Source: Polaromonas sp. (lineage in GTDB: Bacteria; Pseudomonadota; Gammaproteobacteria; Burkholderiales; Burkholderiaceae_C). From it: 64,000 nt of DNA. A program made the position numbers and the translations under genes. Below are positions 52,190-62,817 of the stretch, piece by piece (the stretch's first letter is position 1; each line of letters begins with the position of its first letter). Below the pieces are notes generated by a model. It ran no database searches, was not told where the DNA came from, and was given only the letters and a program-made list of their open reading frames with translations. The stretch covers positions 62,001 through 126,000 of the forward strand of contig NZ_JAQSDA010000025.1 of NCBI RefSeq assembly GCF_029945685.1, given 5' to 3'.

Positions 52190-52609
52190 TCAGCGCCGCC
52201 GCAAGACACCACTCAAGTCAGTTCCCGGCGCAACGGTATTGAACACCGTGCCGTATTTCTTCACATTTTCATGCAGCAAGTCCAGTCGCTGGTCCGACTC
52301 GTCGGTATCCACGATGATTTCGTAACGAATGGACTCCATTCGGGGCGGCACGTCCTGCCGCACGCCATCGACGATGACTTCAACACCGCGCATCTGGAAC
52401 TTCAGAATAGGCGCGACCCGCTCCATGCCCTTGATCATGCAGGCCGACAGCCCTGTCAGCAGCAACTCTGCCGGGTTGAAGGCATCCGGGTTGCCCGCCA
52501 GGTCGGTGTCCAGGGCGATTTCGGCGTTTTTGCAAGTGGAAAGACTGCCGCGCGCGTCGACGCGGCGCGACGCCACGTGAAAAGTCATTTTGGCAGCGGG
52601 CTGGCTCAT
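52190..52609 (-). CDS. OsmC/Ohr-family protein
   Basis: Protein of 139 residues of the OsmC family, thiol peroxidases of organic hydroperoxides. The helix with the reactive cysteine is FNPAELLLTGLSACMIKGMERVA; a second cysteine lies early in STCKNAEIALD. Strand patterns VEVIVDGVRQD and YEIIVDTDESDQRLDLLHENVKKYG are typical. Stands between the CDF and mini-thioredoxin genes on the same strand. Confidence 0.86.
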   Translation of the reverse strand: MSQPAAKMTFHVASRRVDARGSLSTCKNAEIALDTDLAGNPDAFNPAELLLTGLSACMIKGMERVAPILKFQMRGVEVIVDGVRQDVPPRMESIRYEIIVDTDESDQRLDLLHENVKKYGTVFNTVAPGTDLSGVLRRR

Positions 52610-52773
52610 GAGGGGTGATCCTTGTCGGTTGAGTGCGTACTCAGGGCAGACCTGACGCAGGCGTCGAGGCGGCTGCCGATGACAGGGTACCCGTTTTTCC
52701 TTTTGCCTCCAGCAACAGGAACGCGCTCCCGCTGCTCAAGCCGCCAGCCGCGGTGGGGCGTCTGGCCTGTCCT

Positions 52774-53013
52774 TCAAGCGATGGCGGTGAGCCATTGCTC
52801 GATCTTGTCGCGGCTGGGCACGCCGCCCGCATGGACCACTTTGCCATTGATGACAACGCCTGGCGTGCTCATGACGCCGTAGCCCATGATGTCGCGCAAC
52901 TCCTCCACTTTTTCCAGCTTGACGGTGACGCCTTTGGCCTTCGCCACCTGGTCGATGAGGGCAATGGTGTTTTTGCAGTTGGTGCAGCCGGTGCCGAGTA
53001 CCTTGATGTCCAT
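52774..53013 (-). CDS. Mini-thioredoxin (redox-active disulfide protein 2 family)
   Basis: A 79-residue thioredoxin-fold protein (MDIKVLGTGCTNCKNTIALI) with the CTNC motif, Cys10 and Cys13, the cis-proline in MSTPGVVINGKV and a C-terminal helix. This TM0996/MTH895-like family commonly lies beside permeases like the one upstream and may supply electrons or carry metal. The ATG at 53013 gives the family length; an upstream extension is repeat-derived. Confidence 0.92.
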   Translation of the reverse strand: MDIKVLGTGCTNCKNTIALIDQVAKAKGVTVKLEKVEELRDIMGYGVMSTPGVVINGKVVHAGGVPSRDKIEQWLTAIA

Positions 53014-53055
53014 GGTGTTTCCTTGAGAGTGAGGTTGATGAAAAGAGTTTGTGCT

Positions 53056-53218
53056 TGGTGCAGCGTTGCACGCTATCTGGAACATAAAAGCGCGTCTTTT
53101 GCGCCATGGCGGCGTTGCAAATCCGCGCGATACCCTTGGTATCGCTGTGGTTTGCGCCTTGCCTTGACCCAAAAGCCATCACTTTTATTTGTTCCATCAA
53201 GCATGCAACACTGCACTA
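53056..53218 (+). repeat. 163-bp inverted-repeat element, copy 2
   Basis: The ends TGGTGCAG (53056-53063) and CTGCACTA (53211-53218) are inverted, as are GGAACATAAAAGCG and CACTTTTATTTGTTCC inside them. The core shares CATGGCGGCGTTGCAA and CATCACTTT with copy 1. The right end provides the stop codon of the permease gene. Confidence 0.85.
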
Positions 53219-54262
53219 CAGCACCGCGTTGAATACAAAACCCACCAGCAGAATGCCGCCGGCCACCACCGCCACAAAGGTGGCGATCAGCCGCAGCTTG
53301 AGCACCTTGCGCAGGATGATCATCTCGGGCAGGGACAGCGCAATCACGCTCATCATGAAAGCCAGCACGGTGCCCAGGGCCGCGCCCTTGGCCAGCAGCG
53401 CCTGCACGATGGGAATCACGCCGGCTGCATTGGTGTACATCGGCACACCCATCAGCACCGCCAGCGGCACCGACCACCAGGCTTCCTTGCCCATGAAGCT
53501 GGCCATGAACGCTTCCGGCACATAGCCGTGGATCAGGGCGCCCAGTGTTATGCCGCCCAGGATGTAGGGCCAGACCTTGCCCACAATTTCGCGCACCGCT
53601 GAAAAACCGGCTTGAATGCGGTCGGCCAGCGTGGTCTGCGCGTCTTCAAACTGGGCCGAAGTTTTTGGCATGTCGCGCACCCAGTCTTCGAGGTAGGCTT
53701 CCATCTTGAGGCGGCCAATGATCCAGCCCGCGACGATGGCGACCGCGAGCCCCAGGCCCAGGTAGAGCAGCGCCACCTTCCAGCCGAACAGGCCAAACAG
53801 CAGCGTCAGCGCCACTTCGTTGACCATGGGGGCGGAGATCAGGAAGGAGAAGGTCACCCCCAGCGGCACACCCGCCTGCACAAAACCGATGAACAGCGGC
53901 ACCGCCGAGCATGAACAAAACGGCGTGACGATGCCCAGGGACGCGGCCATCACGTTGGCCACACCCTCGCTACGGCCGGCCAGCAGGGCGCGGGTGCGCT
54001 CCGGCGTGAAGTAGCTGTTGACCATGCCCATGACAAACACCACGCCGGTCAGCAGCATCAGGACCTTGGGCGTGTCGTAGAAGAAAAACTGCAGCGCACC
54101 CCCCAGGTGGCTGGCCCGGTCTACCGGCAAGGCGGCGACCAGTGCTTCAGAACCGGGCAGCAGTGTCTGGTAAAGGCCCAGCCAGCCCAGAGCGGCCAGG
54201 ATCAAAAAGATGACGGGCTGGCGCAGGGGCCAGGACTTTTGCGGCGTCGTGACGGTGTTCAT
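53216..54262 (-). CDS. Permease of the ArsP / SO_0444 family
   Basis: Inner-membrane permease of 348 residues with about eight to ten helices in two halves. The key motif TPFCSCSAVPLFIGFVQAGVP is that of ArsP-type (DUF318/UPF0718) permeases, in which a cysteine pair is needed for exporting trivalent organoarsenicals; other members handle copper or zinc. The second half has GVPMYTNAAGVIPIVQALLAKGAA. A mini-thioredoxin follows 200 bp downstream, a common pairing. The TAG stop is contributed by the 163-bp repeat. Confidence 0.87.
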   Translation of the reverse strand: MNTVTTPQKSWPLRQPVIFLILAALGWLGLYQTLLPGSEALVAALPVDRASHLGGALQFFFYDTPKVLMLLTGVVFVMGMVNSYFTPERTRALLAGRSEGVANVMAASLGIVTPFCSCSAVPLFIGFVQAGVPLGVTFSFLISAPMVNEVALTLLFGLFGWKVALLYLGLGLAVAIVAGWIIGRLKMEAYLEDWVRDMPKTSAQFEDAQTTLADRIQAGFSAVREIVGKVWPYILGGITLGALIHGYVPEAFMASFMGKEAWWSVPLAVLMGVPMYTNAAGVIPIVQALLAKGAALGTVLAFMMSVIALSLPEMIILRKVLKLRLIATFVAVVAGGILLVGFVFNAVL

Positions 54263-54318
54263 ATCTGTGAAGACGAAGGAAACCGGCAAAAGACGCACAA
54301 ACCACAAAATTATTGATG

Positions 54319-54373
54319 AAATATGCCTCCAGCCCTTATGCAGAAAGCGCAAGCAGCTATTGAAACTGTAGCA
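54319..54373 (+). repeat. ~55-bp repeat copy between the permease and sigma factor genes
   Basis: AAATATGCCTCCAGCCCTTA, AGCGCAAGCAGCTATTGAAA and CTGTAGCA agree well with the consensus. Confidence 0.8.
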
Positions 54374-54433
54374 AAGAAAGAGGTGTCAGAACGGCTGAGG
54401 GGGCAGTACTCAGCTTTTTTCAGGCTGGCAGCT

Positions 54434-54976
54434 CTACGGGCGCGGCACAAAATCCGCCACGTGCCCCGCATCGTCGATTTGCACCTGGCAAGCCACGGTC
54501 ATGCGCTGCTTCAGGCGCTGGCGCGCGCGTTGCAGGCGCGATTTTGCGGCGCTCAGGTTCAGCCCCCTGGCGGCGGCGAATTCGGCTTGTGGCATGCCCT
54601 GCAGGTCGCATAAGGTGATGACCTCGCGGTCCTCGGCCGTCAACTCGGACAGCACGCGCGGCAGGCAGGCGGTGAGGGTGTCCACCGTGTCGGTTTCATT
54701 GGCAGGTGCGGCCAGGTCGTCGGGCAAGTCCACCGTGGCGCGGGCCACGCGCAGCCGATCGGCCAGGGTGTTGCGCGCCACCTCGAACAGCCAGGCGCGG
54801 GCGTTTTGCACCGAACAAAAGCGTTCACCCTGGCGCAGGGCCTTGATGAACAGGTCCTGCAGCAGGTCATCGGCCTCGGCCGGATTGCCCAGCCGATGGC
54901 GCAGCCAGCCGCGCAACTCGGGCGCGTGGGAGGCCCAGGCGGTGGTCAGACAATTCGGTGCGGCTCCGTTCAACAT
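54434..54976 (-). CDS. sigZ: ECF sigma factor, SigZ-like
   Basis: Extracytoplasmic-function sigma factor of 180 residues. Region 2 runs from about 5-75 (GWLRHRLGNPAEADDLLQDLFIKAL, NARAWLFEVARNTLADRLR), and region 4 from about 104-155 (LSELTAEDREVITLCDLQGMPQAEFAAA). The C-terminal CQVQIDDAGHVADFVPRP is the extra segment of SigZ-type factors. The ATG at 54976 follows GAGGAAACC, a better start than the GTG at 54991. No anti-sigma gene is adjacent; the permease, thioredoxin and OsmC genes downstream are candidate targets. Confidence 0.85.
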   Translation of the reverse strand: MLNGAAPNCLTTAWASHAPELRGWLRHRLGNPAEADDLLQDLFIKALRQGERFCSVQNARAWLFEVARNTLADRLRVARATVDLPDDLAAPANETDTVDTLTACLPRVLSELTAEDREVITLCDLQGMPQAEFAAARGLNLSAAKSRLQRARQRLKQRMTVACQVQIDDAGHVADFVPRP

Positions 54977-55119
54977 GGTTTCCTCAGGCACTGATGGCCG
55001 GTCGCTTCATTTTCCACCAAGGTGCAACTGGGTGGGTGACGTCATTGCTGTTCTTGCTGCAGGGCAGGAGCGAAGCCGGAACTGACGGTTCAGTGAAATC
55101 GCCTGACTTTCAAGTCAGG

Positions 55120-55188: not shown

Positions 55189-55217
55189 CTGTCATCAAAC
55201 TGCCATTAAACCGACAT
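55189..55217 (+). promoter_or_regulatory. Pho box upstream of phoX
   Basis: CTGTCAT CAAA CTGCCAT (55189-55206) gives two seven-base repeats 11 bp apart, the standard PhoB site, followed by a weaker third CCGACAT at 55211-55217. It lies 64 bp before the phoX start. Confidence 0.82.
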
Positions 55218-55280
55218 GAACACGTCACCCTCGACTTCCAGAATCACTCCATCAGTCAAAAACACGATGGAGAGTGATTC

Positions 55281-57242
55281 ATGGGGCAGGGATTCGGCAA
55301 GGATTACGAGCAGGGTGAAGGCGTCAACACGACGTCCAATCCCTTCATACACGAAGTAGACGGCGAGCGCCGCCATGTGCTGCGCTGCACGACGGCGGCG
55401 GTGGCGCTGCTGATGGGATCGCACACGCTGACGGCCAGCGCCGCCACCGTTGCCAAAGGCAAACCCCTGGGTTTTACCGGCGTGCCGGTGTCCAGTGCAG
55501 ACACGCTTGTGGTGCCGCCCGAGTACGACGCCCAGGTGCTGTACCGCTGGGGTGACGCGGCCGGCATTGCGGGGGCTGCAGCGCCAGCCTTCAGTGCGGA
55601 CGCGTCGAACAACTGGCAGGAGCAGTTGCTGCAGTCGGGCATGCACCACGACGGCATGGAGTATTTTCCGCTGGACAAAAATCCACGCCATGGCCTGCTG
55701 GCCATCAACCACGAGTACACCGACGACGGCCTGCTGCACAGCGACGGCATGAAGACCTGGACCGCCGACAAGGTGCGCAAGTCGCAGGCGGCACACGGCG
55801 TCAGCGTGATCGAGGTGGTGGAACGCGCCGGTGTCTGGCGCGTGATGCCCAACTCGCGTTATGCGCGCCGCATCACCGGCAACACACCCATGCTGTTCAG
55901 CGGCCCGGCCGCCGGCCATGCGCTGCTGAAAACTGCGGCCGATCCCGAGGGCCTGCAGCCGCTGGGCACGCTGAACAACTGCGCCGCCGGCCAGACGCCC
56001 TGGGGCACCTTTTTGACCTGCGAGGAAAACTGGAACGGTTACTTCTCGGCGCAGGACAAGCCGAACCCGGACGAGGCACGTTACGGCCTGCGCGCCAAAG
56101 GCTTTGGCTACCGCTGGCACGAGTTTGACGAACGTTTTGACGCAGTGAAACACCCCAACGAGCCGCACCGCTTTGGCTGGGTGGTGGAGATCGACCCGCA
56201 GGACCCGACACAGACCCCGATCAAGCGCACCGCGCTGGGCCGCATCAAGCACGAAGGGGCGACGACGACGCTGTCCCGCGATGGCCGCGCGGTGGTCTAC
56301 ATGGGCGACGACGAGCGTTTTGAGTACATCTACAAGTTTGTCAGCCGCGACAAGGTCAAGCCCGGTGGCTACCGCGCCAACAAGGAGTTGCTCGACCATG
56401 GGACGCTGCATGTGGCCCGTTTTGATGAGCAGGGGTATGGCCGCTGGTTACCGCTGGTGCATGGGCAGGAAAACCTAACCGTCGCCAACGGCTTTGCCAG
56501 CCAGGCCGACGTGGTGGTCAAGTGCCGCCAGGCTGCGGACGTGGCGGGCGCCACCAAGATGGACAGGCCCGAGTGGGTGGCCGTACACCCCAACACCGGT
56601 GAGGTGTTTGTGACGCTGACCAACAACAGCAACCGGGGGCAGGGCAGCCAGCCGGGACGCATGGTCAATGCAGCCAACCCGCGCAACGACAACATCATGG
56701 GTCACATCATTCGCTGGCGCGAAGGCAAGGGCAGCCCGGGCGGCAGCGCCAGCCGCCTGGACGGCGACGCCAGCGCGACGGAGTTTCGCTGGATGCACTT
56801 CGCACTGGCCGGTGACCCGAACGCCGAGAAGGCCGAGTACCGGGGCACGATCAAGGGCGATATGTACGGCAGCCCCGATGGTCTGCAGTTTGATTCGGGC
56901 GGCATGCTCTGGATACAGACCGACATTTCCACATCGGTCATCAACAAGGGCGCCTACAAAAATATAGGCAACAACATGATGCTCTGCGCCGATCCGGCCA
57001 CCGGCGAGACCAAGCGCTTCTTGACCGGCCCGGCGGGCTGCGAGATCACCGGGGTGACGTTCACGCCCGACCGCCGCGCGGTCTTCATCAACATCCAGCA
57101 CCCAGGCGAGACCGCCAGCGAACGCAGCGATCCGGCCCAGCCGAAGGCGGTGAGCCATTGGCCTGACGGCCCGGCGGGCGGACGACCGCGCTCGGCCACT
57201 GTCGTCATCCGGCGCAAGGATGGCGGCGTCGTCGGAACCTAA
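55281..57242 (+). CDS. phoX: PhoX-family alkaline phosphatase
   Basis: Secreted calcium/iron-dependent phosphatase (DUF839) of 653 residues that releases phosphate from organic phosphoesters outside the cytoplasm. Near residue 30 a twin-arginine-type signal occurs (GERRHVLRCTTAAVALLMG), fitting Tat export of PhoX. Conserved segments include LLAINHEYTDDG, GTFLTCEENWNGYF, GWVVEIDPQD, GRAVVYMGDDERFEYIYKF and SPDGLQFDSGGMLWIQTD. GGAGAG sits six bases before the ATG at 55281. A Pho box upstream implies PhoB control. A terminator follows. Confidence 0.93.
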   Translation: MGQGFGKDYEQGEGVNTTSNPFIHEVDGERRHVLRCTTAAVALLMGSHTLTASAATVAKGKPLGFTGVPVSSADTLVVPPEYDAQVLYRWGDAAGIAGAAAPAFSADASNNWQEQLLQSGMHHDGMEYFPLDKNPRHGLLAINHEYTDDGLLHSDGMKTWTADKVRKSQAAHGVSVIEVVERAGVWRVMPNSRYARRITGNTPMLFSGPAAGHALLKTAADPEGLQPLGTLNNCAAGQTPWGTFLTCEENWNGYFSAQDKPNPDEARYGLRAKGFGYRWHEFDERFDAVKHPNEPHRFGWVVEIDPQDPTQTPIKRTALGRIKHEGATTTLSRDGRAVVYMGDDERFEYIYKFVSRDKVKPGGYRANKELLDHGTLHVARFDEQGYGRWLPLVHGQENLTVANGFASQADVVVKCRQAADVAGATKMDRPEWVAVHPNTGEVFVTLTNNSNRGQGSQPGRMVNAANPRNDNIMGHIIRWREGKGSPGGSASRLDGDASATEFRWMHFALAGDPNAEKAEYRGTIKGDMYGSPDGLQFDSGGMLWIQTDISTSVINKGAYKNIGNNMMLCADPATGETKRFLTGPAGCEITGVTFTPDRRAVFINIQHPGETASERSDPAQPKAVSHWPDGPAGGRPRSATVVIRRKDGGVVGT

Positions 57243-57248
57243 AGAGTC

Positions 57249-57273
57249 AAAGCCCCTGCAACGGGGCTTTTTT
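57249..57273 (+). terminator. Intrinsic terminator after phoX
   Basis: AAAGCCCC (57249-57256), loop TGCAAC, GGGGCTTT and a run of six T. It should isolate phoX from olsB. Confidence 0.88.
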
Positions 57274-57285
57274 ACGGAAATTTTC

Positions 57286-57327
57286 GAGAGTCGAGAGTCG
57301 AGAGTTGAGAGTTGAGAGTTGAGAGTC
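57286..57327 (+). repeat. Six-copy heptanucleotide tandem repeat upstream of olsB
   Basis: GAGAGTC or GAGAGTT is repeated six times without gap (order C, C, T, T, T, C). It occupies the leader between the phoX terminator and the olsB ribosome site. Such tracts can change length by slippage and so alter promoter or leader spacing. Confidence 0.9.
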
Positions 57328-57356
57328 ATTTGCGAGAAGACAACCAGGAGTCCATC

Positions 57357-58211
57357 ATGAAAGAACTGCCCAATCCCACCTTTGCATTGTCGCCAGTCGC
57401 AATGCCACGGGGGTCACTTCATCAAAGCTCTCATGCTGCCGATCCGGTCGCTGTTCAAGGGACTGCGCCGGGGAAAATCCAGGTAGGCTGGGCCAGGCAC
57501 CAGGACGAGGTGCGGCAGGCACAGCGGCTGCGGTACCAGGTCTTCGCGCTGGAGATGGGGGCGACGCTGCCCAGCACGGTGCCGGGCCATGACATCGACC
57601 TGTTCGACGATTTCTGCGAACACCTGCTGGTGCGCGACGAAGCCAGCCAGGAAGTCATAGGCACTTACCGCGTGCTCACGCCGACCCAGGCCAAACGCGT
57701 GGGCAGCACCTACAGCGACACCGAGTTCGACCTCACGCGCCTGCGCGCCCTGCGCGAACGCATGGTCGAGCTGGGACGCAGCTGCGTGCATGCCGAGCAC
57801 CGCCACGGCGGTGTGATCCTGGCCTTGTGGGGTGCGCTGGCCGAGTTCATGGCGCGCAACCAGCTCGACACCATGATCGGCTGCGCCAGCATTCCGATGC
57901 AGCACAGCGGCCACCCGGAATACGGCAGCGGGCATGCGGCAGCCAGCATCTGGCGCCAGGTGCGGCAAAGCCACCTGGCAGCCATCGAATACCACGTGAC
58001 GCCGCGCCTGGCCCTGCCGGTCGAGCAGCTCGACGATTCGCTGGACGTCGAGCCGCCGGCGCTGATCAAGGGCTACCTGCGGCTTGGCGCCAAGGTCCTG
58101 GGCGCACCGGCCTGGGACCCGGACTTCAACTCGGCCGACCTGCCCATGATGATGCGCATTGCCGATCTGCCGCCGCGTTATCGCAAGCATTTTTCCAGCA
58201 AGGCGACCTGA
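57357..58211 (+). CDS. olsB: Ornithine lipid N-acyltransferase OlsB-like (GNAT)
   Basis: Acyltransferase of 284 residues that joins a 3-hydroxy fatty acid to the alpha-amino group of ornithine, the first step of ornithine-lipid synthesis. Family features are EVRQAQRLRYQVFALEMGA (about 56-74), HDIDLFDDFCEHLLVRDE, GTYRVLTPTQA and ELGRSCVHAEHRHGGVILALW, then FNSADLPMMMRIADLPPRYRKHF. CAGGAG precedes the ATG at 57357. OlsA is not adjacent. Its stop overlaps the next start (TGATG). Phosphate-free ornithine lipids replace phospholipids in phosphate-starved bacteria. Confidence 0.87.
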   Translation: MKELPNPTFALSPVAMPRGSLHQSSHAADPVAVQGTAPGKIQVGWARHQDEVRQAQRLRYQVFALEMGATLPSTVPGHDIDLFDDFCEHLLVRDEASQEVIGTYRVLTPTQAKRVGSTYSDTEFDLTRLRALRERMVELGRSCVHAEHRHGGVILALWGALAEFMARNQLDTMIGCASIPMQHSGHPEYGSGHAAASIWRQVRQSHLAAIEYHVTPRLALPVEQLDDSLDVEPPALIKGYLRLGAKVLGAPAWDPDFNSADLPMMMRIADLPPRYRKHFSSKAT

Positions 58212-59074
58212 TGCGTACGCTGTTCGACAAGCTCGGCGCGCTCAACCATGGGGGCACGCCGCCGCCCGAAGACGACCATGATGACGCCGCATTGCGCCAG
58301 CGCTACCGCAGCATCTTCATTTCCGACTTGCACCTGGGTACACCGGGCTGCCAGGCCGCGGCACTGCTGGACTTTCTGAGGGCCCACCCCAGCGACCACC
58401 TTTACCTGGTGGGCGATATCGTGGACGGCTGGCAGCTGCGGCGCAAATGGTACTGGCCGCAGTCGCACAACGATGTGGTGCAAAAGCTGCTGCGTCGCGC
58501 GCGCAAGGGCTGCCGGATCGTCTATGTGCCTGGCAACCATGATGAGTTTGCGCGTGAGTTTATCGGCCATCAGTTCGGTGGCATCGAGGTGGTCGAGGAC
58601 GCCGTGCACACCACCGCCGACGGCCGTCAGTTGTGGGTTGTACACGGTGACTATTTCGACGCGGTGGTTCAATGCGCCAGATGGCTGGCCTACGTGGGCG
58701 ACAACCTCTATGAACTCACGCTCAAGCTCAACCGCCACCTCAACAGCCTGCGCGCGCGCATGGGGCTGCCCTACTGGTCGCTCTCGGCCTACCTCAAGCA
58801 CAAGGTCAAGAGTGCGCTGAACTACGTCACCGATTTTGAAGTCGCGGTCGCCAACGAGGCGCGCCGGCGCGGCCACCAGGGGGTGGTCTGCGGCCACATC
58901 CACCGCGCCGAAATGCGCGACATCAACGGCGTGCTTTATTGCAATGACGGCGACTGGGTCGAAAGCCGCACCGCGCTGGTGGAACACTACGACGGCAAGC
59001 TGGAGCTGCTGCACTGGGCGCCGGCCCATGAAACGCAGGGCCGCGGCCATGTGGCGGGCACGGTGGCCGCATGA
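58211..59074 (+). CDS. plcP: PlcP-like metallophosphoesterase (LpxH superfamily)
   Basis: Calcineurin-like phosphoesterase of 287 residues with FISDLHLGTPG, LYLVGDIVDGWQL, YVPGNHDEFAR, WVVHGDYFD and VVCGHIHRAEM. It resembles LpxH but is longer and lacks LpxH context. In alphaproteobacteria PlcP of this family cleaves phospholipid head groups to diacylglycerol during phosphate starvation and sits beside the glycosyltransferase Agt, as here. The assignment depends on that neighbourhood plus the upstream olsB. Start and stop overlap the neighbours (TGATG, ATGA), so the three genes are one operon. Confidence 0.75.
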   Translation: MRTLFDKLGALNHGGTPPPEDDHDDAALRQRYRSIFISDLHLGTPGCQAAALLDFLRAHPSDHLYLVGDIVDGWQLRRKWYWPQSHNDVVQKLLRRARKGCRIVYVPGNHDEFAREFIGHQFGGIEVVEDAVHTTADGRQLWVVHGDYFDAVVQCARWLAYVGDNLYELTLKLNRHLNSLRARMGLPYWSLSAYLKHKVKSALNYVTDFEVAVANEARRRGHQGVVCGHIHRAEMRDINGVLYCNDGDWVESRTALVEHYDGKLELLHWAPAHETQGRGHVAGTVAA

Positions 59075-60138
59075 AAATTGCCCTTGTTACCGACGCCTGG
59101 CAGCCGCAGGTCAATGGCGTGGTCACCACGCTGGTGGAGCTGGTGCGTGAACTGCAGGCCCTGGGCCACACGGTGGAAGTGCTCCACCCCGGCCTGTTCA
59201 GAACGCGGCCTTGTCCGGGTTACGCCGGCATCGATCTGGCCGTGCGTCCCCAAGCCCTGCTGACCGCACGGCTGGATGCTTTCGCGCCCGAAGCCATCCA
59301 CATTGCCACCGAAGGCCCGCTGGGCTGGGCGGCACGCAGCTATTGCGGCAAGCGCGACCTGCGTTTCACCACCGCCTTTCACACCAAGTTTCCGGAGATC
59401 CTCCACGCCGCATTGAAAATTCCGCTGTCCTGGGGTTACGCGCTGTTCCGATATTTCCACAAGGCTTCGTCAGGCGTCATGGTGCCGACCCAGGGCGTGC
59501 TGCGCATGCTGGAGAAACGCGGTTTTCGCCAGCTGCGCAGCTGGACGCACGGGGTGGACACCGCGCTGTTCCCGTTTCATTCCAGTGCGCGGCTCTACCC
59601 GCCCATGGGCACCCTCGCGCGGCCGGTGTCCCTGTTTGTCGGTCGTGTGTCGTATGAGAAAAACATCGAGGCCTTCCTGGCGCTGGACATTCCGGGGACC
59701 AAGGTGGTCTGCGGCGTCGGGCCGCTGGAGGCTTCGCTCAAGGCGCGTTATCCGCAAGTGCGCTGGCTGGGTGTGCTGCCGCGCGACGAATTGGCCAGGG
59801 TCTACGCTGCCGCCGATGTGTTTGTTTTTCCCAGCCGGTCGGAAACCTTCGGCCTGGTGATGCTCGAAGCCATGGCCAGCGGTACACCCGTCGCGGCTTA
59901 CCCGGTTGACGGCCCGCTCGAGGTGCTGGGCAAACCGGATGGCAGCCACCACGGCGGTGTTCTGGATACGGACCTGAAACGCGCCTGTTACAAGGCGATG
60001 GCGGTGCCACGCCATGAGGCCCGCGCCCGTTCGCTGGACTTCAGCTGGACGCATGCTGCAAAACTGTTCGAAGGCCATCTGGTGCCGGTTCGCAGCAAGG
60101 CCAAAAGTGCGTTGGTGACGACCCAGGCCCTGGTTTGA
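59071..60138 (+). CDS. Lipid glycosyltransferase, Agt-like (GT4)
   Basis: GT-B glycosyltransferase of 355 residues. N-terminal MKIALVTDAWQPQVNGVVTT and C-terminal LFVGRVSYEKNIEAFLAL, LPRDELARVYAAADVFVFPSRSETFGLVMLEAMASGTPVAA are of the GT4 type related to sulfoquinovosyl- and glucosyl-diacylglycerol synthases. Together with a PlcP-like partner it would glycosylate the diacylglycerol released from phospholipids, making glycolipids without phosphate. The sugar donor is unknown. The start overlaps the plcP-like stop by four bases. Confidence 0.8.
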   Translation: MKIALVTDAWQPQVNGVVTTLVELVRELQALGHTVEVLHPGLFRTRPCPGYAGIDLAVRPQALLTARLDAFAPEAIHIATEGPLGWAARSYCGKRDLRFTTAFHTKFPEILHAALKIPLSWGYALFRYFHKASSGVMVPTQGVLRMLEKRGFRQLRSWTHGVDTALFPFHSSARLYPPMGTLARPVSLFVGRVSYEKNIEAFLALDIPGTKVVCGVGPLEASLKARYPQVRWLGVLPRDELARVYAAADVFVFPSRSETFGLVMLEAMASGTPVAAYPVDGPLEVLGKPDGSHHGGVLDTDLKRACYKAMAVPRHEARARSLDFSWTHAAKLFEGHLVPVRSKAKSALVTTQALV

Positions 60139-60143
60139 AACAT

Positions 60144-60172
60144 TTGTCATGAGGTTGTCACGTTTTTGTCAT
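60144..60172 (+). promoter_or_regulatory. Triple Pho box upstream of ppk1
   Basis: TTGTCAT (60144-60150), TTGTCAC (60155-60161) and TTGTCAT (60166-60172) recur with an exact 11-bp period, the PhoB direct-repeat pattern. It lies 31-59 bp before the ppk1 ATG. Confidence 0.88.
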
Positions 60173-60202
60173 CAAATCCGCGCACACTGACAAGTCAGAT
60201 TC

Positions 60203-62341
60203 ATGACAATTACCAGTTCGGACGGCATGTTGCAAACTTCTGCCTCTTCACCCTTGCCTGCGGGCCTGCCCGCCGCGGCTGCAGCGGTCCAGTTTCTGGA
60301 CCGGGACCACAGCATCCTGGCGTTCAACGAGCGGGTGCTGGACTGGGCCAAGCGGCCCGACGTGCCCCTGCTGGAGCGGCTGCGCTTCCTGTGTATTGTT
60401 TCGTCCAACCTGGACGAGTTTTTCGAGGTGCGCGCCGCGCTGCACCTGACGGCTGCGCTCAACCAGGAGCAGAAGGCGCCTTACTCGGCCGAGTCTTTCA
60501 AGACCCTGTCTGCCGCTGCCCACGACATGGTGGCCCGCCAGTACGCGCTGTACAACGACGAATTGATGCCGGAGTTTGCGAAGCAGGGCATACGGATTGT
60601 TTCGCACGGCGACCGCAGCGCGGCCCAGCGCCGCTGGGTCAAGGCCTACTTCGAACGCGAGGTCCAGCCGCTGTTGATTCCTGTCGGGCTGGATCCTTCG
60701 CACCCGTTTCCGCAGGTTGCCAACAAGTCGCTCAATTTCATTGTGCGGCTGGGCGGGCGTGACGCCTTCGGCCGCGAAAATGACATTGCCATCGTCAAGG
60801 TGCCGCGCGTACTGCCGCGCCTGATCCACATGCCCGACAAGGGTTCGCGGAAAAAGCTGCTGTTTGTCTCGCTGTCGAGCATCATCCGGGCGCATCTGGC
60901 CGACCTGTTTCCGGGCCGCCAAGTCGGGGAGTTTTCACAGTTTCGCGTGACACGGCACTCTGACCTGGCGGTCGATGAAGACGACGTGAAGAACCTGCGG
61001 ACCGCCTTGCGGCTCGGGCTGGAGCAAAGGCATTACGGGCTGGCAGTGCGCCTGGAGGTGTCGGCGGGTTGTTCCAAACACCTGTCGGATTTTCTGCGTG
61101 GCCAGTTCAGCTTGCCGGAGGAAGCCTTGTACCGGGTGCACGGCCCGGTCAACCTGGTGCGCCTGACCCAGCTGGTGGACCTGGTCAATGACCCGAAGCT
61201 GCTTTTTCCGCCCTACAAGGCCTGTTACCCGACGCAGCTGGTGCCGGGGCAGTCGTTTTTTGAACGCCTCAAGCAGGGCGACGTCTCCATCCACCAGCCC
61301 TTCGAGAGTTTCAATGGTGTGCTCGATTTCCTGCGCGAGGCGGTGAACGATCCGCAGGTGCTGGCCATCCGGCAGACCATCTACCGCACCGGTCCGGACT
61401 CCGAACTCATGGTCCTGCTGCGTGAGGCGGTGCGTCGCGGCAAGGAAGTCACGGTGGTGCTCGAGCTCAAGGCGCGCTTTGACGAGGAAGCCAACATCAA
61501 CTGGGCCGAGATGCTGGAGTCGATCGGGGCGCAGGTGGTGTATGGCGTGGTCGGGCTCAAGACCCATGCCAAGATGCTGCTGGTCACCCGGCGCGAAGGA
61601 CGGCAGCTGGTGCGTTACGCCCATTTGTCCACCGGCAATTACAACCCGAATACCGCGCGCCTGTACACCGATGTGAGCTACCTGACGAGCGACCCGGCGC
61701 TGACCGCAGAAATCGACAGCGTCTTCGGGCATCTGGCAAGCCAGAGCAAATTGCCCCGGTTGCAGCGCCTGCTGGTGGCGCCGTTTCAGTTGCACCGCAA
61801 ACTGATCGAAAAAATCGACGCCCTGGCCGAGGCTGCAACGCTCGGCAAGGACACGCGCCTGGTGGCCAAGATGAACGCCCTGACCGACGAGGGCCTGATG
61901 CTGGCCCTGGTCAGGGCAGGGCAGCGCGGCGTGAAAATTGACCTGGTGGTGCGCGGCGCCTGCATGCTGCCTGCCGGCGTGCCCGGGGTGACGGACAACA
62001 TTCGCGTGCGTTCCATCATCGGGCGTTTTCTGGAGCATTCACGCGTGTTCTATTTTCGTTGTGACGGGGAGGAGACCCTGTACCTGTCCAGCGCCGACTG
62101 GATGAACCGCAACATGCTGCGGCGTGTGGAACTGGCCTGGTCGGTGACCGATCCCGTGATGCGCCAGCGCATCATCGACGAATGCCTGGTCGCCTACCTG
62201 CATGACAGCCAGGACGCCTGGGACCTGCAGCCCGATGGAACTTACCTGCGGGCCGGTGCGTCGCCGCAGGCCGGGCGGCACGGTGCGCAGGCCGCGCTGA
62301 TGGCCCGTTATTCGGCTGGCGGCGCTGCGGTGCAAGGCTAG
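60203..62341 (+). CDS. ppk1: Polyphosphate kinase 1
   Basis: Makes long-chain polyphosphate from ATP. The 712-residue protein has the N-terminal helix domain (FLDRDHSILAFNERVLDWA), the catalytic histidine in VGLKTHAKMLLVTRRE, the second active histidine in IGRFLEHSRVFYF and arginine-rich ATP contacts (GNYNPNTARLYTD). The ATG at 60203 is used although its ribosome site is weak; an ATG at 60227 is an alternative. PhoB control is shown by the triple box. SixA and, convergent on the other strand, Ppx are close by. Confidence 0.95.
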   Translation: MTITSSDGMLQTSASSPLPAGLPAAAAAVQFLDRDHSILAFNERVLDWAKRPDVPLLERLRFLCIVSSNLDEFFEVRAALHLTAALNQEQKAPYSAESFKTLSAAAHDMVARQYALYNDELMPEFAKQGIRIVSHGDRSAAQRRWVKAYFEREVQPLLIPVGLDPSHPFPQVANKSLNFIVRLGGRDAFGRENDIAIVKVPRVLPRLIHMPDKGSRKKLLFVSLSSIIRAHLADLFPGRQVGEFSQFRVTRHSDLAVDEDDVKNLRTALRLGLEQRHYGLAVRLEVSAGCSKHLSDFLRGQFSLPEEALYRVHGPVNLVRLTQLVDLVNDPKLLFPPYKACYPTQLVPGQSFFERLKQGDVSIHQPFESFNGVLDFLREAVNDPQVLAIRQTIYRTGPDSELMVLLREAVRRGKEVTVVLELKARFDEEANINWAEMLESIGAQVVYGVVGLKTHAKMLLVTRREGRQLVRYAHLSTGNYNPNTARLYTDVSYLTSDPALTAEIDSVFGHLASQSKLPRLQRLLVAPFQLHRKLIEKIDALAEAATLGKDTRLVAKMNALTDEGLMLALVRAGQRGVKIDLVVRGACMLPAGVPGVTDNIRVRSIIGRFLEHSRVFYFRCDGEETLYLSSADWMNRNMLRRVELAWSVTDPVMRQRIIDECLVAYLHDSQDAWDLQPDGTYLRAGASPQAGRHGAQAALMARYSAGGAAVQG

Positions 62342-62346
62342 ACGCG

Positions 62347-62817
62347 ATGGACCTGATTCTGTGGCGTCATGCAGAGGCTGAAGAGTCGCCTGTCGACGTG
62401 CAGAGCGCAAGCGACCTCGAACGTTCATTGACGCCGAGAGGCGAGAAGCAGGCGGCACGCATGGCAGGCTGGCTGGACCGGCAGTTGCCGGAGCGGGCGC
62501 GCATCCTGGTGAGTCCGGCGCGCCGCTGCGAGCAGACGGCGCTGGCGCTGGGGCGCAAGTACAAGATCCGTGCAGAACTCGGGCCCGACGCACCGCCTTC
62601 ACAGCTTCTCGAACTGGTGCAATGGCCGGTCAACAAGCTGCCGATTCTGGTGATCGGCCACCAGCCCACCCTGGGCCAGACCATCGCCCAGTTGCTGGGC
62701 CTGCAGGAAAGCGAATGCCCGGTGAAAAAGGGTGCACTCTGGTGGCTGCGCACGCGTGAGCGCGAAGGAGGCTTGCAAACCGTGCTGGTCACCGTGCAAT
62801 CGCCCGAGCTGCTCTGA
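62347..62817 (+). CDS. sixA: Phosphohistidine phosphatase SixA
   Basis: Histidine phosphatase of 156 residues. The catalytic LILWRHAEAEE is at residues 3-13, with arginine in LTPRGEKQA, SPARRCEQTA and the second histidine in VIGHQPTLGQT. SixA dephosphorylates phosphohistidine of HPt or nitrogen-PTS proteins. Six bases after the ppk1 stop, so one transcript. A role in polyphosphate or Pho signalling is inferred from position only. Confidence 0.93.
   Translation: MDLILWRHAEAEESPVDVQSASDLERSLTPRGEKQAARMAGWLDRQLPERARILVSPARRCEQTALALGRKYKIRAELGPDAPPSQLLELVQWPVNKLPILVIGHQPTLGQTIAQLLGLQESECPVKKGALWWLRTREREGGLQTVLVTVQSPELL

Follow-up and report, generated by a model that had tools for sequence, protein, structure and literature searches.

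Gene content and layout

The window considered here is the whole analysed stretch of 64,000 nucleotides from Polaromonas sp., and all features are given in window coordinates on the forward (+) strand. An ORF check places three overlapping genes at 57357-60138, flanked by phoX on the upstream side and by ppk1 on the downstream side. The first, olsB (57357..58211), encodes a homologue of the ornithine N-acyltransferases. The second, plcP (58211..59074), encodes a metallophosphoesterase predicted to be a PlcP-type phospholipase C, and the third, agt (59071..60138), encodes a GT4 glycosyltransferase assigned to the Agt1 clade. The olsB stop and plcP start share one base and plcP and agt share four, so that translational coupling of the three genes, as claimed in a preliminary description of this DNA, is plausible; all of its ORFs lie where it had placed them.

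The phosphate-related setting given in that description is also borne out. The upstream gene (55281..57242) belongs to the PhoX family of alkaline phosphatases (PF05787, 565.5 bits, 2e-169), and the polyphosphate kinase gene ppk1 (60203..62341; NF003918 and TIGR03705, both over their cut-offs) is a neighbour with a Pho box of its own. It is followed by a sixA-like phosphohistidine phosphatase gene (62347..62817; TIGR00249, 64.1 bits, cut-off 74.5), and genes named by eye as pstSCAB-phoU-phoB-phoR lie a few genes further on. No match at gathering score was returned by an Rfam scan of the window. The gene arrangement therefore holds as first described, while the functional interpretation attached to it is partly supported.

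Conservation of the arrangement

Gene order was compared across 80 named loci, which are near kin of the window because only the top-ranking plcP hits were retained; matches of less than 44% identity were ignored in this count. The olsB gene lies immediately 5' of plcP in 68 of the 80, and the complete order olsB-plcP-agt-ppk1 occurs in 42. Since agt does not adjoin plcP in 17 of the 68 loci with olsB-plcP, it is not an obligate partner. Polaromonas sp. AET17H-212 shares the gene order, with PlcP, OlsB and Agt 94%, 98% and 92% identical, respectively, and it too carries phoX ahead of the operon.

A broader view comes from a family sample of 120 genomes, drawn almost one per genus. Both olsB and plcP were present in 80 of these, and lay within 10 kb of each other in 36; the remaining 44 lacked the linkage, some share of which is explained by contig breaks. 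Across the phylum, 13 of 57 Burkholderiales genomes, representing eight families, showed linkage, as against none of 32 outside the order. It comes in different gene orders, including plcP-agt-olsB. This count took 100 of 105 genomes with olsB (five with E above 1e-10 were excluded) and 70 of 86 with plcP (weak, mostly LpxH-like matches were excluded), and eight Burkholderiales genomes were excluded from the phylum count. The joined arrangement is thus common in Comamonadaceae and is not special to this genome.

The phoX-olsB junction and possible phosphate control

A terminator-like hairpin, AAAGCCCC-TGCAAC-GGGGCTTT with a T run, lies between phoX and olsB (57249..57273). Its stem is 8 bp long, although another scan scored it as a five-pair stem. 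The perfect hairpin and T run recur in 18 of the 21 Polaromonas-group loci examined, some of which are the same contig twice. phoX is probably its own transcription unit, and because of the terminator a single phoX-olsB-plcP-agt operon was not accepted, with read-through being possible. Of the earlier proposal that phoX and the lipid genes form one locus, adjacency stands, and membership of phoX in the operon is not supported. The olsB leader also carries a 7-bp tandem repeat, (TCGAGAG)x6.3 (57284..57327; TRF score 67), and RNA folding of this leader gave a stability no greater than that of shuffled sequences (z -0.76).

The Pho box reported before phoX was found, as three repeats spaced by 11 bp, CTGTCATcaaaCTGCCATtaaaCCGACAT (55189..55217). 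It matches 13 of 14 consensus bases at 55189-55206 and overlaps a site of 11/14 at 55200. The Pho box of ppk1, TTGTCATgaggTTGTCACgtttTTGTCAT (60144..60172), consists of two overlapping 11/14 sites, and a good Pho box also precedes pstS, beyond the window. Sites of this quality are not rare over 64 kb, so that support for the Pho boxes rests on conservation: eight sites of at least 11/14 occur in the window against 5, 3, 1, 0 and 3 in five Markov sequences, and a second count gave five matches against 2.52 expected, a number reached by 10 of 100 shuffles. Among the named loci, a Pho-type site precedes all five phoX genes of at least 40% identity, and Pho boxes scoring at least 11 lie upstream of ppk1 in 47 of 56 (null 2%) and of olsB in 27 of 67 (null 1.4%). 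These counts exclude three olsB and two plcP rows at contig edges, and matches of less than 40% identity.

In this genome, the 114 bp preceding olsB hold no Pho box (the best site matches 9/14), and none lies within 420 bp. The Pho box that is present precedes phoX, a leader gene with a terminator at its end, so that transcription of the operon would depend on read-through or on a promoter that was not found. With no Pho box directly before olsB, we can only infer phosphate control of the operon, and this is the weakest part of the model. The operon might instead remodel lipids in this lineage constitutively or under another regulator, its setting among Pho genes being inherited. The bare olsB upstream region, the terminator after phoX and the modest share of named loci with an olsB Pho box would all suit such a case. 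Even so, it is rather unlikely: olsB Pho boxes are far over the null in the family, leader-gene Pho boxes occur in several Polaromonas (e.g., loci L015 and L041-L044), and those relatives that have been characterised are either under Pho control or have Pho boxes, according to the available portions of the published accounts.

In other Polaromonas species, a small uncharacterised ORF stands in the place of phoX, and several of these ORFs are preceded by a Pho box. Polaromonas JS666 is one such strain, with the small ORF ahead of its lipid operon. It encodes a protein of 60-93 amino acids, for which no family was found in Pfam, NCBIfam or PHROGs (best PHROG E 0.13). One speculative and rather unlikely idea is that Polaromonas possesses a leader-gene switch, in which a Pho box would drive the leader gene up to the conserved terminator just before olsB, and only under severe starvation would read-through extend expression to the lipid genes. 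OlsB, PlcP or the terminator might then be targets of the small protein itself.

Predicted identity of the three lipid enzymes

The product of the first gene matches Acetyltransf_5 (124.5 bits), and its best NCBIfam models are the OlsB models NF052554 (4.6e-45) and NF052555 (3.5e-43). Its scores of 154.4 and 148.1 bits are under the respective cut-offs of 350 and 320, but both models lie more than 30 orders of magnitude ahead of the next family, OlsF, which is itself an ornithine-lipid enzyme. OlsB is thus the nearest described family, and an OlsB-like gene in one operon with plcP and agt agrees with the preliminary description, which named an ornithine-lipid acyltransferase; as a true OlsB it is a candidate, with scores under the family cut-offs. 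No second olsB copy was found in the genome. OlsA is likely encoded elsewhere: the candidate, L004, is the best of the seven PlsC-type proteins in the genome for both OlsA models, at 128 and 117 bits (below the cut-off of 300). In other genomes, four olsA-like genes that lie close to olsB have L004 as their best match, but L004 was also the query that found them.

The OlsB homologue of the window might conceivably acylate another amino acid or an amine, in which case the second lipid would not be ornithine lipid; the glutamine lipid synthase of marine bacteria is kin of OlsB. The sub-threshold equivalog scores and an identity of 33.6% to the Sinorhizobium meliloti OlsB homologue leave room for this, and glutamine lipids do occur in marine bacteria, according to the available part of the source (PMC6298996). 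The lead of both OlsB models over OlsF, the likely OlsA in the genome and an olsA-like gene that overlaps olsB in locus L133 all argue for ornithine, making another substrate quite unlikely.

The glycosyltransferase appears to be Agt-type, as had been suggested. In a tree of 31 chosen rows from at least 124 loci (one row, L102, is a fragment of 47 amino acids), it falls with Pseudomonas aeruginosa Agt1 in a clade of 19 rows supported at 99/99. This clade also holds other plcP-adjacent enzymes, while a second GT4 clade stands apart. The product is 49% identical to P. aeruginosa Agt1. GT4 families are broad, and an NCBIfam search matched 23 of them, none over its own cut-off; moreover, 17 of the 68 named olsB-plcP loci have no Agt of at least 44% identity beside plcP. 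It is nevertheless very unlikely that the enzyme is an operon passenger serving envelope polysaccharide or some other glycolipid, given its grouping with Agt1 and other plcP-adjacent enzymes, and a 4-bp overlap with plcP that is the same in P. aeruginosa.

For the phosphoesterase, the preliminary description had proposed a PlcP-like enzyme, and the phylogeny agrees. The protein matches Metallophos and Metallophos_2 over their cut-offs, and forms one clade (100/100) with the PlcPs of P. aeruginosa and Sinorhizobium, to which it is 57% (P. aeruginosa) and 54% (S. meliloti) identical, apart from LpxH. This tree comprised 35 chosen rows from at least 124 loci, 23 PlcP-type and 12 LpxH; the split is supported at 100/100 on both sides, with a program warning that the LpxH branches are long. 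The product carries D-x-H, GD, GNHDE, HGD and GHIH, which we take to be the metal-site motifs, and LpxH has GNRD in the place of GNHDE. A separate LpxH is encoded in the same genome (G000:C27:55994-56674), scoring 224.3 bits against NF003743 (cut-off 134) and 179-180.5 against TIGR01854 (cut-off 190.35). By its sequence features, the enzyme is PlcP-type and not LpxH, and the outcome named beforehand as refuting this, a branching inside LpxH in a genome lacking any other lpxH, did not occur. That it might be a second LpxH working in lipid A synthesis is hardly credible against the tree, the motifs and the separate LpxH, even though the solved structures closest to it in sequence are those of LpxH (E 4e-4), LpxH models match it weakly (42-47 bits against cut-offs of 134 and 190), and, among 32 listed plasmid records, 24 call the matched gene UDP-2,3-diacylglucosamine diphosphatase, the LpxH activity. 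Products of plcP are easily misnamed in this way. A single-sequence AlphaFold model of PlcP (mean pLDDT 40) was set aside.

A probable membrane-remodelling operon

Taken together, olsB-plcP-agt is likely a phosphate-starvation membrane-remodelling operon. By analogy with characterised enzymes, PlcP would remove the head group of a phospholipid, giving diacylglycerol and a phosphoalcohol from which phosphate could be recovered. Agt would add a sugar, glucose or glucuronic acid, to the diacylglycerol, yielding a phosphorus-free glycolipid. OlsB would acylate ornithine, and OlsA, encoded elsewhere, would finish an ornithine lipid as a second phosphorus-free substitute. The head group, sugar and amino acid of this predicted pathway are not readable from the sequence. 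With the three genes in one operon, degradation of the old lipid would thus be tied to both replacements. If so, phospholipid breakdown and both phosphorus-free replacements would form one genetic unit in many Comamonadaceae, a family for which a literature search found no paper on plcP, lipid and phosphorus. The order olsB-plcP-agt-ppk1 could serve as a simple marker of lipid remodelling in Comamonadaceae genomes and metagenomes.

Comparison with known systems

The component genes are known; what is new, as far as the literature search went, is their joining in one operon, which was not found described. In the available portions of the published descriptions, ornithine-lipid and plcP/agt genes lie apart, and both glycolipids and ornithine lipids are known within one organism for P. 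aeruginosa, Agrobacterium and Methylosinus. PlcP/Agt pairs, which the preliminary description had placed in alphaproteobacteria, are indeed known there, but according to the same partial sources also occur in P. aeruginosa and some type I methanotrophs.

In S. meliloti, PlcP is 54% and OlsB 34% identical to the window proteins; from their neighbours, we take the compared genes to be the characterised plcP and olsB. Unlike in the window, plcP and olsB of S. meliloti Ak57 are more than 1.6 Mb apart, and no glycosyltransferase is annotated next to plcP. Agrobacterium tumefaciens, in the available excerpts, combines PlcP, Agt and OlsB activities in one organism, with a putative Pho box before olsB, but atu1649, atu2297 and atu0344 are separate genes. 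Methylosinus trichosporium has a plcP-agt operon and increases ornithine lipid under low phosphate; in contrast to the window, the part of the report available gives plcP-agt as its own cluster, with olsA and olsB locus tags apart.

The plcP-agt1 pair of P. aeruginosa (PA3219-PA3218) also resembles the window: across the aligned portions, identity is 57% for PlcP and 49% for Agt1 (the comparison sequence being a plasmid copy, L122), and plcP and agt1 show the same overlap of four bases. The available text on this organism reports a Pho box before the pair and production of both glycolipids and ornithine lipids, with olsBA as a separate operon and agt2 as a separate gene. In the window, by contrast, olsB is the first gene of an operon shared with plcP and agt, after which comes ppk1.

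Organisation and novelty of the locus

The Polaromonas genome from which the window derives (4.74 Mb in 28 contigs) carries phoX (55281-57242), olsB (57357-58211), plcP (58211-59074), and agt (59071-60138) in the same direction, with ppk1 (60203-62341) 3' of agt and a sixA-like gene 3' of ppk1. The olsB and plcP genes overlap by 1 base, and plcP and agt by 4 bases. Past the end of the window, the contig continues with ppx on the reverse strand, two further genes, and ORFs that, named by eye, appear to be pstS, pstC, pstA, pstB, phoU, phoB, and phoR. Genes for an ECF-type sigma factor, an ArsP-type permease, and thioredoxin-like and OsmC-like proteins (52190-54991, minus strand) also adjoin the phosphate locus.

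The component genes are known, and their joint arrangement is new as far as the literature searches reach. Judging from characterised relatives, the operon would function in lipid remodelling. Available passages on known systems describe other arrangements. In Pseudomonas aeruginosa, plcP-agt1 seems to form an operon and is provided with a Pho box; agt2 and olsBA are separate (PMC8528852; PMC9804370). The PlcP, Agt, and OlsB genes of Agrobacterium lie apart (PMC3972451), and in Pseudomonas putida BIRD-1, olsA and olsB are, by locus tag, apart from plcP, all being Pho-dependent (PMC5082522). Methylosinus carries plcP-agt and also produces ornithine lipid (PMC9239053). Marine plcP neighbourhoods form six types in which the commonest neighbour is an agt homologue; the passages describing them mention no olsB (PMC4796936). 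Among the literature matches listed, where subscription papers are poorly covered, no title concerned a joint olsB-plcP-agt operon or plcP in Comamonadaceae.

Identity of the encoded enzymes

In the family search, the plcP product exceeded the cut-off for general metallophosphoesterase models only. A tree of 35 selected rows, which carried a warning about long LpxH branches, split 23 PlcP-type rows from 12 LpxH rows at 100/100. The window protein fell in the clade of the P. aeruginosa and Sinorhizobium meliloti proteins, nearest to that of Polaromonas strain JS666. All 23 PlcP-type rows have the motif GNHDE and all 12 LpxH rows have GNRD. A separate LpxH is encoded elsewhere in the genome (G000:C27:55994-56674), scoring 224.3 bits against NF003743 (above the cut-off of 134) and 179 to 180.5 bits against TIGR01854 (slightly below the cut-off of 190.35). 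By tree, motif, and this separate gene, LpxH identity is rejected, and the phosphoesterase of the operon is, on sequence grounds, PlcP-type. Consequently, the PlcP-like assignment of the preliminary description holds: the outcome set against it, a position inside LpxH with no other lpxH in the genome, was not obtained. A P. aeruginosa plasmid gene is probably a copy of PA3219, given the order plcP, glycosyltransferase, adenylate cyclase; cyaB lies at the PA3219 locus, and plcP of S. meliloti adjoins sinI/sinR.

The glycosyltransferase shares 49% identity with P. aeruginosa Agt1 and groups at 99/99 with Agt1 and other plcP-adjacent enzymes, separately from a second GT4 clade. Members of this second clade (33-38% to Agt) lie inside the plcP loci of 10 records (L131, L133-L136, L076, L078, L092, L101, and L111), none of which yielded an Agt1-type gene, and are possibly a substitute enzyme.

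For the first gene, present in one copy in the genome, OlsB families lead with 154.4 and 148.1 bits, under their cut-offs of 350 and 320, followed by OlsF with 43.5 bits. The OlsA candidate, L004, tops the seven PlsC-type proteins of the genome under each of the two OlsA models, with 128 and 117 bits against a cut-off of 300. Elsewhere in Burkholderiales, four olsA-like genes close to olsB (one overlaps it, and three are within about 3 kb) match L004 best, which is weak support for OlsA because L004 was the query that found them.

Distribution and gene order

The closest named record by PlcP is Polaromonas sp. AET17H-212 (94% identity). Among 80 named loci, those kept as best plcP matches, olsB lies directly upstream of plcP in 68. 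The full order olsB-plcP-agt-ppk1 occurs in 42, olsB-plcP-ppk1 without agt in nine, olsB-plcP-agt without ppk1 directly after in eight, olsB-plcP alone in eight, and olsB-plcP-agt cut by a contig end in one; the remaining 12 are without olsB upstream or beyond judging. The agt-less loci with ppk1 (L066, L070, L081, L086, L093, L100, L114, L117, and L119) come from Limnohabitans, Hydrogenophaga, and uncultured records. In these records, ornithine-lipid synthesis may be the one route that PlcP serves, unless agt is elsewhere in the genome.

The family sample comprised 120 genomes from 119 genera; olsB was detected in 94, plcP in 87, and both in 80. The two genes were at most 10 kb apart in 36 of these 80, and in 32 of the 36, olsB was at most 200 bases upstream of plcP on the same strand. 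Both genes occurred in 57 of 150 genomes of an order sample, within 10 kb in 13, which span eight families and several gene orders, including plcP-agt-olsB. Among 200 genomes sampled across the phylum, and not counting Burkholderiales, linkage was found in 0 of 32. The binomial value for linkage in these order and phylum counts (4.5e-17) assumes independent genomes, which is untrue, and counts the window's own genome. The olsB-plcP-agt arrangement is conserved and recurrent in Burkholderiales. The putative joint lipid-remodelling locus is a sound finding, if less singular than first claimed.

Regulation and the region upstream of olsB

Pho boxes precede phoX and ppk1 in the window, and pstS beyond it. 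Eight window sites score at least 11/14, versus 5, 3, 1, 0, and 3 in five Markov sequences; a motif search gave five matches versus 2.52 expected, a number reached by 10 of 100 shuffles. On their own, these boxes are weak. The named loci were scanned over 300 bases before and the first 45 of each gene (score at least 11 of 14, author-chosen consensus weighting; null rate 1.4 to 2%). Sites were found at ppk1 in 47/56, olsB in 27/67, phoX in 5/5, plcP in 3/78, and agt in 0/57 loci. By these counts, the conserved regulatory points lie at the starts of olsB and ppk1. In the source genome, no Pho site was found before olsB: the preceding 114 bases reach 9/14 at most, and the highest score within 420 bases is 8.8.

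Upstream of olsB, phoX (74-91% identity) is present in five of the 80 named loci. Distant phoX-like genes (32-40%) stand before olsB in L132, from another family, and before plcP in L047, L048, and L050; a phoX neighbour therefore also occurs outside this lineage. The same slot is taken by a small uncharacterised ORF (L045:6751-7023; L043:6863-7042; also L015, L041, L042, L044, and others) in further Polaromonas and in a few records from the rest of the Comamonadaceae or from uncultured beta bacteria. This ORF adjoins olsB on its upstream side in 20 loci, some being the same contig fetched twice. As called, it encodes 60-93 aa, with the consensus QxLR(I/V)LxCTA...SPGGLRFxxGxxPWL (12 aligned). 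Mean differences per 34 codons are 8.5, 4.4, and 16.1 at positions 1, 2, and 3 (16 distinct sequences), and the ORF looks to be selected as a protein. It had no match in Pfam or NCBIfam, and the window's genome gave nothing convincing (lowest E 0.05). In the family sample, it was found in one of the 120 genomes, a Polaromonas in which olsB adjoins it, with at most 47 candidates scored per genome and misses possible.

Among the loci compared, L015 and L041-L044 each have a Pho box scoring at least 12.2 at a distance of 331-417 bases upstream of olsB, and L020 has one scoring 11.2; none was found in L016, L017, or L045. Of 21 Polaromonas-group loci (some contigs twice), 18 have a terminator-like hairpin ahead of olsB, with phoX or the small ORF alike. 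The slot genes, Pho boxes, and conserved hairpin lead to a reading, which we regard as rather unlikely, in which a Pho box would drive phoX or the small ORF up to a terminator, and olsB-plcP-agt would be expressed by read-through. The olsB leader also contains a 7-bp tandem repeat in the window (57284-57327), a 6-bp repeat in L017 (3296-3328), and, by eye, a repeat with fewer copies in L040, and copy-number variation ahead of olsB is possible.
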